A DNA stretch of 39,250 bases from a virus, in IMG/VR virus record IMGVR_UViG_3300048834_000083, positions 1 through 39,250 of that record, one strand, 5' to 3'. The translations under genes and the position numbers were made by a program. Positions 24,483 through 37,529 of the stretch are shown here, piece by piece; positions within the stretch are counted from its first letter, which is position 1, and each line of letters begins with the position of its first letter. Under the pieces are notes generated by a model. It worked only from the letters and a program-made list of their open reading frames with translations. It was not told where the DNA came from and made no database searches.

Positions 24483-24899
24483 CTAGAACGGGATGTCCTC
24501 CGGGTTGATGTCACCGATGTCTTCCTCATCCTCCCGATCGTCATCTCTCGCACTCGATGACTTGCTTCCCGCCTTCTGCCCGAACTGGAAGCGATCGACA
24601 ATGATCTCGGTGCGGTACATCTTCTTCCCGCTGTCCTTGTCCTCCCAGCTCTGCGTCTTCAGTCTACCCTCGACATAGAGCTCTTGCCCCTTCTCCACAT
24701 ATTGCGCGATCGTCTCTGCATCTTTGCCGAACGCCACGATGTTGTGGAACTCGGTCTCCTCCTGCTTCTGCTTGTCTTTGTCGTACCAGACTCGGTTCGA
24801 TGCGACCGAGAAGCTGCACGCCTGCGTCCCTGATGGGAGCGACTTGAGCTCTGGATCACGCGTCACCCGTCCGATCACTTGTGCTTTGTTTAAGTTCAT
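24483..24899 (-). CDS. ssb: Single-stranded DNA-binding protein
   Basis: A 138-residue SSB. The OB fold (about 1-105) begins MNLNKAQVIGRVTRDPELK, with SVASNRVWYDKDKQKQEETEFHNIVAFGKDAETIAQYVEKGQELYVEGRLKTQSWEDKDSGKKMYRTEIIVD, the standard bacterial SSB pattern. A short Ser/Asp-rich linker leads to the acidic tip INPEDIPF, the interaction peptide that recruits helicases, nucleases and repair proteins. It protects single-stranded DNA during replication and recombination and may replace host SSB. It is in unit I, upstream of the helicase genes. Confidence 0.95.
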   Translation of the reverse strand: MNLNKAQVIGRVTRDPELKSLPSGTQACSFSVASNRVWYDKDKQKQEETEFHNIVAFGKDAETIAQYVEKGQELYVEGRLKTQSWEDKDSGKKMYRTEIIVDRFQFGQKAGSKSSSARDDDREDEEDIGDINPEDIPF

Positions 24900-25830: not shown

Positions 25831-25869
25831 GTTGTTTTACATATCGCTGATAATGTGCTCATTGTATCA
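25831..25869 (-). promoter_or_regulatory. Promoter-like box TGATACAAT and leader of the basic protein gene
   Basis: TGATACAAT (25861-25869) is an extended -10-like sequence. The leader reads TTATCAGC, 6 nt, TAAAACAAC, 4 nt after the motif to the start context TAGCTATG. It may allow independent late expression. Confidence 0.45.
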
Positions 25870-26340
25870 CCTTGAAGGTGGACGTCCGAGCTTCCTCACG
25901 CAGTCCGGGAACTCTTGCTCCCATCGAACCGCGTCATCATCCATCATGAAGCGCACCATGAGCCGCTGCGCTTCGGGATCGTAGAGCTCGACCTCTCCCA
26001 TCGAGTACCGCACTCGGTACATCTCGAACGTCGTGTCCTTGAACTGAAGAAGCCCATGCGAAGGAGTGCCGTCACGATCGACTGGATTGAGTGCGTTCGG
26101 GTTTCCACCCGACTCGCAGATCTCCAGATCAGTGAGCCACTGCTCTCTCGTCGCCGGTTGCTTCAGCAGTACCTTCTTCGGTTCCTCCAGGTGCGCCGTT
26201 GTTATAGGCTCGATGACCTCCACCTCCTTCACTGGCATCTCTGCGAGTGGTGTGTCACGTGGAACCTCGTCTTCGATTGTCCCTGGTCTCCCCAGTATGT
26301 AGAGGAGCATCAGCCCCCCGATGAAAAATGCTTTCGTCAT
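25867..26340 (-). CDS. Transglycosylase (SLT/lysozyme-like) with N-terminal anchor
   Basis: A 157-residue protein: a hydrophobic N-terminal segment (MTKAFFIGGLMLLYILG, 1-17) acting as signal or anchor, a Pro/Glu-rich linker (20-65), then a small lysozyme-like domain with LEICESGGNPNALNPVDRDGTPSHGLLQFKDTTFEMY. Glu76 in ICESGGNP is the expected catalytic acid, and GLLQF is the second SLT motif. It should cut peptidoglycan glycan strands outside the membrane. It lies downstream of the multidomain lysin, so it may be the lysis glycosidase. A small hairpin (GCCCG/CGGGC) sits just before its start. Confidence 0.85.
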   Translation of the reverse strand: MTKAFFIGGLMLLYILGRPGTIEDEVPRDTPLAEMPVKEVEVIEPITTAHLEEPKKVLLKQPATREQWLTDLEICESGGNPNALNPVDRDGTPSHGLLQFKDTTFEMYRVRYSMGEVELYDPEAQRLMVRFMMDDDAVRWEQEFPDCVRKLGRPPSR

Positions 26341-26375: not shown

Positions 26376-26675
26376 TCAGTACAGATCGATCTGGCGTGAG
26401 TTGTAGGACGCAGAGACGCCCATCTCACGCTCCGCTTTCGCGATGGTGATGCTGTTCAGTATTGCCTTCCAGATCTCGGCCACGATGAGACCGATCACCA
26501 CCACGAGAGATGCAGGAACTCCTGCGCTCGTGAGCCATGCGTACACATCATGCACGAAGGTTGCCCACTCCGGTGTGAGCACTACGGCGATGAGAGCCGT
26601 GAAGATCAGCGACCCTGCGCTGATGAAGAAAGACTTGATGCGTTTTGACATAAATATATTTGTTATAGCTTGCAA
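26376..26675 (-). CDS. Possible internal holin-like gene within the lysin
   Basis: In frame inside the lysin, TGCTACAAT (26689-26697) overlaps AGGAGGT (26682-26688), which sits 7 nt before TTG 26675; a second start is ATG 26651. The 99-residue (or 91-residue) product MSKRIKSFFISAGSLIFTALIAVVLT... has a basic N-terminus, two membrane helices and a charged tail, the class II holin layout. The sequence TACAATAGGAGGTA also precedes the initiator gene. Separate expression of the membrane part is inferred, not shown. Confidence 0.5.
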   Translation of the reverse strand: MQAITNIFMSKRIKSFFISAGSLIFTALIAVVLTPEWATFVHDVYAWLTSAGVPASLVVVIGLIVAEIWKAILNSITIAKAEREMGVSASYNSRQIDLY

Positions 26676-28157
26676 TGCGTTACCTCCTATTGTAGCACTT
26701 TTGACCCCGAAAAGTGCCTCGTCGATGTTCCCCTGTTGAAAGTCGAGAAGCGAGTATCCGGCCGTGAACTGGAAGTGCGGTCGGTCTTGGAAGCTCTCCC
26801 ACTTCCCGCCCCACTCGAGTCCGATCGCCTCTGCGATCGCTCCAGCCATATCCCACGGTCCCTCGTAAGTGATACCCGATCCCTTCTTGAACGCCACATC
26901 GAACGCGCAGCGCCAGTTGTGAAGGCTCTCGCCTCCCTTCGCATTGGTGACGATCGCTCCTGGCTTCGTGCGCCCTTGAGCATAGAGCTCGTTCTGCTCC
27001 TCGATGGATCGGTACTCGTCAGTCACCATGACCGGGTTGCCGGTCGCCTCCATGATCGCCACAAAGAGATCACGGAGTTCCGCCACCTTCGGGTAGAGCT
27101 CTAGCTCATTTTTTTTTTGAGCGTTCAGTGACGCTCGTGTCTTCGGTCCTAGTCGGCCGTAGCCTGTTGTTTGCGGAGTACCGCTCGAGACGAGGTTCTT
27201 CGTCTTCTGGTATCGCTGCACTGCGTCTTCAGTAAGCGGTCCATAGTGCGGATCGAACTGCGCCTCCACTCCCTGGAAGCATGGCTTCCCATCGAACGCA
27301 GTCTCCTTGATGAGACGCTTCTGCAGTTCCACCACATCCGTGCCGGTCATGCCACGCTCGAGGTCACGAGTGAACACGAACAGCGTCTCCTTCGCATCTT
27401 CGAGGATCTCGTTCGGGATGTCGGTGTACACCATGATGTCGTGGATCTTGCCTTCGTACTCATCGAAGTAGAACCACCCGTTCCCGTCATCTCCCCAGTC
27501 CTCGCCCCATGAGTTGCGGAAGTAGATCTTCACCCGATCCTTCTTCACCTCGAACCCATAGAACACGATGCGGTGACGCCCGCGGTATGGTGTCGGCTTC
27601 ACTGGTAGCTTGCTCCATGCTCCCACTTCGAGCGTGGCGTTCACCACTCCGTTCTGGTAGATCGCCTGCATGATGTCTTCAGCAGTCGCCGCCACGAACG
27701 CATAGCCCCCAGTCCTGCGAAGATGCGCATCCTTCTTGATCGCATCCGTCACCGTGACCTTGATGAACTCCGCATGCGGTAGGCTGTTGTCATCGCCTAC
27801 AAGCGCCTCACGCGCCGCACCCTCATCCTTCAGCACACCGGCCGCCACTCGAGGATAGGTTCCCTCTGCAGCAAGCCCGTCCTTCGCCTTGCATCTCGCA
27901 TACACGAAACGCTTCGAGACCCGCGTCAGTACGCCGGTCTCTTTTCGGTCGAAGTACTCGGCCGTCTTCCCTTCAGCCTGCCCCACGCACGAGCCGTTCT
28001 TCTTCTGATCCTCCACCGGATACTCCGAGAGATCCGTGAGGTACTTCTTCGGCAACGCCACGGGCGCCTGCACGAGTGCGAGCGGGATGTCACGGTTGTC
28101 TGGTGGGTTCAGTGCCGCACCCAGTCCTTTTTCTTCGATCGTTTGTTTTTTTGGCAT
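26376..28157 (-). CDS. Multidomain lysin: papain-like, PG-binding, M15 peptidase and two-TM domains
   Basis: I choose ATG 28157 (593 residues). Residues 35-245 form a papain-like (C1) peptidase: Gln51, Cys57 in GSCVGQ, His195 in GRHRI and Asn215 in RNSWGEDWG. Residues 265-345 are a peptidoglycan-binding domain (GMTGTDVVELQKRL, YGPLTEDAVQRYQ). Residues 355-470 are an M15/VanY-like L,D- or D,D-peptidase with DEYRS, His413-x(6)-Asp420 (SLHNWRCAFDV) and PHFQ (His461). A linker then leads to two hydrophobic helices (508-530 and 545-570), holin-like. The last part has its own possible start. The protein likely degrades wall peptides and possibly the membrane barrier in one polypeptide. Confidence 0.88.
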   Translation of the reverse strand: MPKKQTIEEKGLGAALNPPDNRDIPLALVQAPVALPKKYLTDLSEYPVEDQKKNGSCVGQAEGKTAEYFDRKETGVLTRVSKRFVYARCKAKDGLAAEGTYPRVAAGVLKDEGAAREALVGDDNSLPHAEFIKVTVTDAIKKDAHLRRTGGYAFVAATAEDIMQAIYQNGVVNATLEVGAWSKLPVKPTPYRGRHRIVFYGFEVKKDRVKIYFRNSWGEDWGDDGNGWFYFDEYEGKIHDIMVYTDIPNEILEDAKETLFVFTRDLERGMTGTDVVELQKRLIKETAFDGKPCFQGVEAQFDPHYGPLTEDAVQRYQKTKNLVSSGTPQTTGYGRLGPKTRASLNAQKKNELELYPKVAELRDLFVAIMEATGNPVMVTDEYRSIEEQNELYAQGRTKPGAIVTNAKGGESLHNWRCAFDVAFKKGSGITYEGPWDMAGAIAEAIGLEWGGKWESFQDRPHFQFTAGYSLLDFQQGNIDEALFGVKSATIGGNALQAITNIFMSKRIKSFFISAGSLIFTALIAVVLTPEWATFVHDVYAWLTSAGVPASLVVVIGLIVAEIWKAILNSITIAKAEREMGVSASYNSRQIDLY

Positions 28158-28167
28158 AGTTATTTTT

Positions 28168-28626
28168 TTATTGTCTAGTAGTGTGGTCGAGCACATCGAC
28201 ATGCTTGCCGATGAGGTCGATCAGTTTGGTGATGGCGTTGTTCGTCACCTCCATGTTCTTCGCGAGTGTGGTCACGATGTCGTGCGTCTCGCGTGAGATC
28301 TTCATCGCTTCGAACGCTTGCTGCTGGAACTTCTTGGTGTCATCATCTCGTCCCTGCAACACCTTGATGAGTGTCTCGTTCTCCCGTTCAAGATCGCTCA
28401 CCTTTTTGGTGAGGTTCTCGATGTCAGTGGTCTGCTTGTTCACTTTCGTCTCGAGCTGATCCACTGTCTGCTTGAGGAGATCGATCAGTCGGTCCTCATT
28501 GCCATCGACCTCCTTCCGCCGTTCCCTGGCGCTCTTGTCCCATAGTCCATACAGCGCAATACCGCCGGCTATGATCAAGCCCGCGATAATGATGTATGTG
28601 CCGATGTGATTGAGTATCTGATCCAT
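28168..28626 (-). CDS. Membrane-anchored coiled-coil protein (spanin- or lysis-like)
   Basis: A 152-residue protein: an N-terminal transmembrane segment (THIIIAGLIIAGGIALYGLW-like, about 9-28), then a charged linker and a long coiled coil (about 45-105, DLLKQTVDQLETKVNKQ and LERENETLIKVL). The C-terminal helical part is rich in Ile, Thr and His. The layout of one TM plus a periplasmic or cytoplasmic coiled coil resembles an i-spanin, but there is no obvious o-spanin partner with a lipobox. It sits directly upstream of the lysin and after the tail-tip genes, so a lysis role is likely. Confidence 0.65.
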   Translation of the reverse strand: MDQILNHIGTYIIIAGLIIAGGIALYGLWDKSARERRKEVDGNEDRLIDLLKQTVDQLETKVNKQTTDIENLTKKVSDLERENETLIKVLQGRDDDTKKFQQQAFEAMKISRETHDIVTTLAKNMEVTNNAITKLIDLIGKHVDVLDHTTRQ

Positions 28627-28630
28627 GATG

Positions 28631-30193
28631 CTATTCGATGATCTGCGCCACTACTGCCCGACCTGGTGCGCCGTTTCGACCTGCGATGCCTGCCGTACCA
28701 TTGACTCCCTGCGTTGTCGATCCAGTTCCAGCAATACCCGCAGCACCAGCCGCTCCGCCTATACCTCCCGAAGTGTTGATGGTTCCGCTGTTGGTGAGAG
28801 CTCCCTTGCAGAGAAGGTACACATCCGCACCATCACCGCCATCGCCTCCGTCTCCGCCATCGCCTCCGTCACCAGAGTTGTCATCGGATGCAGTAGATCC
28901 TCCGGCCCCACCGTTTCCGCCGTTGCCACCCGCTGCGAAAATGTTACCAGAGAAGCTGAGCGTGCTATCAGTGAACAGATAGAAGCAAGTCGCTCCGCCT
29001 TTGCCGTCTCCACCGTCTCCACCGTTTCCGCCATCTCCCGATGTGTTGTTCTGTGCCTGGCCACTTCCTCCGTTTCCGCCGTTGCCACCATTGACACCTG
29101 TCCCGCCGTTTCCTCCGTTTCCGCCGGTGTTCTGGTCTCCGTTTCCACCATCACCTCCGTCACCACCATCGCCGTATGTACCATTCCCTCCGTTGCCACC
29201 ATGACCACCGAGAGTACCGTCTGCAGATGTGCCTCCTCCATCGCCACCATCACCTCCAGCGTTCCATCCATCGCCGCCATTGCCTCCGTTTCCACCGCTC
29301 GCTCCGTTATCGAACGCAGAGCCACCGTTTCCACCATTGCCTCCGTTTCCACCATTAGGTCCAGAGTTGCCTCCATGACCTCCATGACCTCCATCGCATC
29401 CGTTGTTCGTACCATTGCCGCCATTGCCGCCATTGCCTCCGTTTCCATCATCCACGCCAGCACCACCCGAACCTCCCGATCCAGCAGCACCAGAGCCAGA
29501 AGCACAATCGCCGCCATTGCCGCCATTGCCTCCGTTCTTGTTGGTCGCTGTAACGCCGGCCGCACCTGAAGTAGATGCACTCGAAGCACCGCCACCTCCG
29601 CCACCTCCGCCGAGTGTTGTGCCGTTTCCGTTTCCTCCGTTTCCACCAGAGCCAGAAGCTCCTGTTCCCGCAGTACCGCCAGTACCCGATGCAGGAGAGA
29701 CTGATCCATCAGATCCGCCCGCTCCACCGTTTCCGCCTCCAGCGTTTGCTCCAGGCGCAGCTTCAGCAGCACCGAGAGATCCTGAAAGTGCGTTTCGTAT
29801 AGATCCCGATGTGAGCACCTGTGAAGATACTGCCACGCCGATCTTGCCAGTCACTACTCCCTGCAGGTTGATGTCTCCCACGATCGTCACCGCTCCCTGG
29901 CATCGGATAACTACCCACGAGTTGCCGGTGAAGCGAAGCGTCGCTCCGGCTGAGATATTGAAAGTCGTGAAGTTGTACACCTGTCCAGTCGCAAGGAACG
30001 CAGTACCGCTCGTGAGGTTGTACGCACCATCGCTTCCATCGCCGCCCTCATGGAACGACAAAAACTCGGAGTGGACTTTTCCGTCCCCCTCGAGTCGTGG
30101 TACGCGATCCACATCATTCGCCGGAGTAGCATCTCGCTCGCTCTGGTTGATGAAGTCGCCCTCTCGTATTTTTTGTCCTGCTCTTAAGGTCAT
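28631..30193 (-). CDS. Gly/Asn-rich tail-tip protein, polyglycine helix-like
   Basis: A 520-residue protein. Residues 1-150 form a normal mixed/beta domain ([29 protein letters not shown]). From about 160 to 440 it consists mostly of [16 protein letters not shown] and GAGG runs with short inserts; the C-terminal 70 residues return to mixed composition. Gly-rich arrays of this kind form polyglycine-II bundles in the gp38-type phage adhesins, where variable loops contact the receptor. A receptor-binding role is inferred. The start overlaps the preceding gene by 4 nt. The plus-strand open frames here are codon shadows of GGN repeats. Confidence 0.8.
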
Positions 30194-37520: not shown

Positions 37521-37529
37521 ATTATAGCA
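37521..37529 (-). promoter_or_regulatory. Extended -10 promoter box TGCTATAAT
   Basis: A perfect extended -10 sequence in the 18-nt gap after the repeat fibre, ending 9 nt before ATG 37511. The transcript would start about 2-4 nt before the ATG. This is the best member of the series. Confidence 0.6.

Follow-up and report, generated by a model that had tools for sequence, protein, structure and literature searches.

A papain-family peptidase, a peptidoglycan-binding domain, an M15 peptidase and a putative holin in one reading frame of an environmental tailed phage

Endolysins of the Enc34/M4Lys type consist of an enzyme and a C-terminal two-helix domain, and can lyse cells with no separate holin (PMC7143992, PMC8943055); M4Lys requires its C-terminal transmembrane (TM) domain for lysis, and in E. 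coli it depends on neither holin nor Sec (PMC7143992). A natural holin-endolysin fusion has been described in C. sporogenes (PMC9527704), and in-frame internal starts in endolysin genes give rise to two polypeptides from one gene (PMC9430671). Permuted papain-like amidases have been described in the tails of Thrax phages (PMC9703825). In the literature searched we found no paper on true C1 papains as phage lysins, and the words papain and Peptidase_C1 are absent from two endolysin surveys, one of which (PMC12596118) excluded endolysins with transmembrane regions from its data set. Phage proteins combining papain and peptidoglycan (PG)-binding domains are already present in UniProt: one of them (BFVD A0A6J5MXS7, 484 aa, annotated as "Peptidoglycan binding-like", from an uncultured Caudovirales phage) is 32% identical over 339 columns to the protein described here.

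The window analysed in this study, i.e. the whole 39,250-nt stretch of a virus record, carries capsid protein, protease, portal and terminase genes as well as tape measure and baseplate hub genes, and is devoid of tRNAs. An intact lysin ORF (ATG at 28157, TGA at 26378-26376; Table 1) is located on its minus strand. The initial annotation had reported a single ORF without stating the strand; this ORF exists and is open throughout. Its description as "one polypeptide" applies to the reading frame but perhaps not to the products, since the join between enzyme and membrane parts resembles a gene boundary. An alternative in-frame ATG at 28202, 45 nt ahead of the likely start, would give a protein of 608 aa and would overlap the preceding gene; the shorter form is favoured because an AT-rich stretch precedes position 28157.

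The product shares with Enc34 ORF39 and M4Lys an enzyme followed by a C-terminal two-helix membrane domain (PMC8943055, PMC7143992). The enzyme of the latter is a lysozyme-like PHA02564 domain, without papain, PG-binding or M15 modules; this catalytic domain, which defines the family, was not found in the lysin of the window, whose enzymes are C1 and M15 according to Pfam. The C. sporogenes fusion also unites holin and lysin in one chain, but there the holin is N-terminal and has a single TM helix (PMC9527704), while the in-frame products reported for other endolysin genes are shorter enzyme isoforms and not holins (PMC9430671). Endolysins of the Ply500, LysB4 and CwlK types share the M15 fold, the zinc residues and about 40% identity over the domain, but have neither a papain domain nor a C-terminal hairpin; in the window, M15 is the third of four modules. 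The fusion of enzymatic and membrane-disrupting parts, which had been considered rarer still than a papain in a lysin, is seen here as one open frame, but it has precedents in Enc34/M4Lys and C. sporogenes.

Table 1. Features of the lysin gene and its neighbours in the window.
Feature	Position	Strand	Residues	Remarks
Whole ORF	26376..28157	-	593 aa + TGA stop	papain C1 + PG_binding_1 + M15 + linker + two-TM hairpin
Peptidase_C1 (papain-family) domain	27465..28019	-	aa 47-231	Q51, C57, H195, N215
PG_binding_1 domain	27180..27347	-	aa 271-326	
M15 domain (L-Ala-D-Glu endopeptidase type)	26769..27095	-	aa 355-463	H413, D420, H461; acid D458
Linker	26652..26705	-	aa 485-502	18 codons, translated; gene-boundary composition
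Extended -10-like motif in linker	26689..26697	-		TGCTACAAT
Perfect Shine-Dalgarno-like sequence	26682..26688	-		AGGAGGT, 6 nt before TTG495
Holin-like two-TM segment	26379..26651	-	91 aa	from internal ATG503 (MSKRIKSFF...)
Upstream cassette gene	28168..28626	-	152 aa	N-terminal TM + coiled coil (spanin-like or accessory)
Downstream gene	25867..26340	-	157 aa	N-terminal hydrophobic segment + SLT-like lytic domain

Moving on from the tail module, a glycine-rich ORF comes first, then a TM/coiled-coil gene, the lysin gene and an SLT-like gene. Lysis cassettes usually occupy this place and, together with the domains of the predicted product, the position makes it very probable that this product acts as the endolysin of a tailed phage; the M15 part is matched by PHROG lysis/endolysin families. 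The TM/coiled-coil gene is 35% identical over 147 aa to its positional counterpart in a related locus (L337), and has weak Rz-like PHROG matches. The SLT-like gene matches Pfam SLT above the cut-off (8e-6) and has a 45% identical homologue in a portal-related phage (G022). Similar SLT-like proteins would hint at a host among the Patescibacteria, a suspicion on which we base no claim. No relatives were found with the baseplate hub as the query. The glycine-rich repeat ORF just ahead of the lysis genes (520 aa, 28631-30193, minus strand) has no family match, and glycine-rich ORFs are present at the equivalent place in L337 and L341.

The domains with their residues and folds, the place in the cassette and the gene-boundary signature were all computed. 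Profile searches with Peptidase_C1, PG_binding_1 and M15-family models each gave matches above the gathering cut-off. The papain domain was matched at 5e-9 (37 bits versus a cut-off of 20.7). Its triad of Cys57, His195 and Asn215 occupies exactly the positions given in the initial annotation, and Q51, six residues ahead of C57, is placed like the oxyanion glutamine of papain. All four residues are invariant in an alignment of 37 sequences, and Cys57 and His195 also in 10 aligned papain relatives. In the AlphaFold2 model based on the 37-sequence alignment, the domain reached a pLDDT of about 85-98 over most of its length, and a Foldseek search identified xylellain (3ois) as the closest structure (E 2.6e-15, target TM 0.74), with matches to cathepsins as well; the proposed papain fold is thus present according to both programs. 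Taken by its triad, oxyanion glutamine, profile and predicted fold, the domain is a member of the C1A papains. For structure prediction the papain and M15 relatives were aligned separately, because in a joint alignment, which was rejected, the papain rows were misaligned onto M15.

The PG-binding domain does lie between the two peptidases, as had been noted. Its class was assigned by profile (1.3e-5, 25.7 bits versus a cut-off of 23), this part being poorly modelled by AlphaFold2 (pLDDT mostly below 60). Within the M15 region, Pfam identified VanY at aa 355-424 (2e-6) and Peptidase_M15_4 at aa 405-463 (4e-11), both exceeding the gathering cut-offs. The zinc residues, again at exactly the positions first proposed, form an HxxxxxxD...H site that is invariant in 22 sequences. 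When the C-terminal 248 aa were modelled, the M15 domain was predicted confidently, and the remainder as helices only, at moderate confidence. The modelled domain matched Ply500 (2vo9) with E 2.8e-11 and an rmsd of 2.0 over 124 columns, and also LysB4, PDB entries 2vo9 and 6akv being matched in both sequence and fold. M15 enzymes of the Ply500 type cleave the L-Ala-D-Glu bond and, by its similarity to them, the domain encoded in the window should cut this bond of the stem peptide.

Hydropathy analysis bore out the two C-terminal membrane helices that had been proposed (about aa 510-528 and 542-560). AlphaFold2 modelled this region as helices only, with a pLDDT of about 65-78. A second possible start, TTG495 at 26675, would extend the hairpin to 99 aa. 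The hairpin had no homologue in phages, viral contigs or the examined relative loci when used as the query, and comparison with known holin families revealed no Pfam match and no significant PHROG match. It is a short two-TM-helix segment adjoining an endolysin, which is the layout of class II holins; given this topology, and the place that a separate gene takes in relatives, we infer that it is a holin. A tblastn match in LPPA15 that seemingly ran into the next gene was set aside: the membrane parts are not similar, and no homology is claimed.

The linker looks like a gene boundary or gene start. Of 11,512 codon windows in the genome, that at aa 485 ranks first in synonymous AT3 bias (z -6.18); the second-ranked window (25165) falls in an ORF model that covers the likely boundary of two smaller ORFs, and the third (28184) just ahead of the lysin gene's own start. 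Gene-interior 63-mers (over 90 nt away from the nearest gene boundary) with a GC content of one third or less were found at 22 of 28,442 positions, all of them at the linker. GC3 amounts to 0.41 in aa 471-502 versus 0.67-0.75 in the domains, and returns to 0.73 in the hairpin, with the same coding frame on either side and no frameshift signature; nor was there any frame error inside the enzyme part, a point raised by the initial annotation. Standalone M15 homologues stop at the equivalent of aa 479-484, and the 54 nt from their end to ATG503 are open and in frame in the window.

Two motifs are also present in the linker. The minus strand of the genome contains five copies of the consensus TGNTAYANT, and the plus strand none; the four copies outside the linker lie 7-18 nt before gene-model start codons, and the copy at 25869, which overlaps a start codon, may be due to chance. 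AGGAGGT by itself is a weak signal, because AGGAGG is present in 55 copies on the minus strand, mostly inside coding sequence; a Shine-Dalgarno sequence is absent from most of the gene starts checked in the window. The promoter-like and Shine-Dalgarno motifs overlap too closely to be used by one transcript and, having been sought after the site was seen, they weigh less than the composition ranking. Scans for terminators and sigma-70 promoters yielded fewer sites than in shuffled sequences and were not used. The TGNTAYANT motifs at 37529, 30754 and 6696 (minus strand) precede start codons by 16-18 nt, which leaves little room for a leader, and several genes of this phage may therefore be leaderless.

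When viral contigs were scanned for the papain part, 80, 12 and 47 loci were identified, partly overlapping. Papain-type C1 is encoded in more than 100 environmental virus loci; Peptidase_C1 was matched in 67 of the 69 scanned proteins (that of the window and 68 environmental viral relatives). The initial view of C1 domains as unusual in phage lysins has to be corrected in so far as they recur in environmental phages, even though no publication on a lysin role was found. Papain is paired with PG_binding_1 in L084, L245, L246, L339 and L340, and is attached to M15_3 in L256, M23 in L337, SLH in L085, SPOR in L263 and Cu_amine_oxidN1 in L262 and L104; the papain part of L341 is too diverged for Pfam, its PG-binding part being matched. 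The SLH module of L085 is a Pfam match, while an SLH-like tail on the papain of L248/L273 was judged by eye. In the isolated phage THSA-485A the papain gene follows a GH25 lysozyme gene, and in L263 papain-SPOR comes first, ahead of genes for a TM protein, an Amidase_2 protein and a 62-aa two-TM protein, in this order. In bacterial genomes, papain matches of 23-31% identity are dispersed among many phyla.

The closest papain relative, L256, is 45% identical over 256 aa and likewise has a second enzyme of the M15 superfamily and a following two-TM gene. It differs from the window in that the enzyme is Peptidase_M15_3 instead of M15_4, the PG-binding domain is missing, and the two-TM gene (79 aa) is separate. 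The proteins of L084, L245, L246 and L338-L340 share papain followed by PG_binding_1, but neither a Ply500-type M15 domain nor a fused hairpin was seen in the loci examined. A portal search retrieved 34 related phages. Five of their records, some of them short fragments, match the query in the same cassette, which consists of a TM/coiled-coil gene, papain with PG-binding domain or M23, and a short TM gene. M15_4 was not found in any of the 20 longer portal-related records, and the second enzyme is therefore exchangeable. All nine close relatives (L084, L245, L246, L256 and L337-L341) have a short membrane protein encoded separately behind the enzyme, in L084 with one small gene in between; the gaps are 41 (L256), 59 (L337), 46 (L245) and 47 nt (L246), and otherwise a few nt. 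The full-length query found no relative in viral contigs and no match covering 80% of it in phage genomes, and the fused enzyme-hairpin form was not found in any relative; the fusion thus rests on one metagenomic sequence.

We consider it fairly probable that an endolysin and its holin are fused or overlap in frame, and that the holin has probably retained a start codon of its own. The separate hairpin counterpart in nine relatives and the gene-start-like linker suggest that the membrane part is probably also made as a separate product. The internal start, the lysis function, the substrates and the timing are inferred, and the likeliest history would be that the stop codon of the enzyme was lost, so that the former intergenic stretch is now read through. 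The last 91-99 residues would form the two-helix holin, with its start most likely kept at ATG503, or at TTG495 behind AGGAGGT, and two products, the full-length enzyme-holin and the free holin, would be the likeliest present state. The free holin would open the membrane at a set time and the enzyme domains would reach the wall, where the PG-binding domain could hold them while M15 cuts stem peptides. Papain might cut a second peptide-linked layer, which by analogy may be a surface protein layer (cf. the SLH fusion in L085) or other peptide bonds of the wall (cf. the PG-binding, SPOR, M15 and M23 partners). The unusual host envelope suggested in the initial annotation is conceivable. Put forward more tentatively, as something we slightly doubt, is the wider proposal that one frame holds the complete lysis cassette, with a holin nested in a papain-PG-binding-M15 endolysin and both membrane-tethered enzyme and free holin as products, within a papain-core lineage whose second modules are exchangeable (PG-binding, M15_4, M15_3, M23).

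The same open frame could encode a single obligatory fusion, in which the hairpin serves to anchor the enzyme or to bring it through the membrane and no free holin is made, as the required TM domain of M4Lys (PMC7143992) and the like layout of Enc34 ORF39 (PMC8943055) would suggest. We regard this as unlikely, given that the gene-boundary composition of the linker ranks first in the genome and that nine relatives carry a separate short TM gene at this place. These observations would also fit two ordinary genes, the enzyme's stop codon being hidden by an error of sequencing or assembly in this one metagenomic contig: relatives have two genes, the linker composition and the 54-nt spacing match an intergenic gap, and one base change could mask a stop. 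However, such an error would have to hit one particular codon, no frameshift signature was detected and GC3 recovers in the hairpin, which makes this explanation somewhat less likely still. That the gene follows the tail module, and that papain-like amidases occur in Thrax tails (PMC9703825), would also suit a virion-associated or tail-linked surface protease for entry and not an exit lysin. This we find very improbable in view of the short membrane gene behind the enzyme in all close relatives, the lysis-family PHROG matches, the Ply500-type M15, the adjoining GH25 lysozyme gene in THSA-485A and the Amidase_2 and two-TM genes in the L263 cassette.

True papain proteases thus recur in environmental phages beside PG-binding modules and second wall peptidases, which points to hosts with protein in the release barrier or to papains that cut wall peptides. 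If an endolysin and its holin are indeed joined in frame with the gene-start signature preserved, the locus would be a rare snapshot: a tethered endolysin of the Enc34/M4Lys type could arise by the loss of one stop codon, and the whole cell-bursting kit may be fused or nested in a single reading frame.

Some further features were observed among the related loci. The TM/coiled-coil gene was weakly matched in L353 (record G020, 24489-24812), within an open stretch of 635 aa interrupted by a single TAG, which possibly reflects a recoded phage or a chance match. The papain + M23 lysin of L337 (655-2232, minus strand) ends in two near-identical repeats (GIMILEGFSG..LFEDK..EYQTLLQI). In the phage papain gene of L289 (4870-6879), intein splicing and LAGLIDADG domains are located before the His/Asn half of the papain domain.
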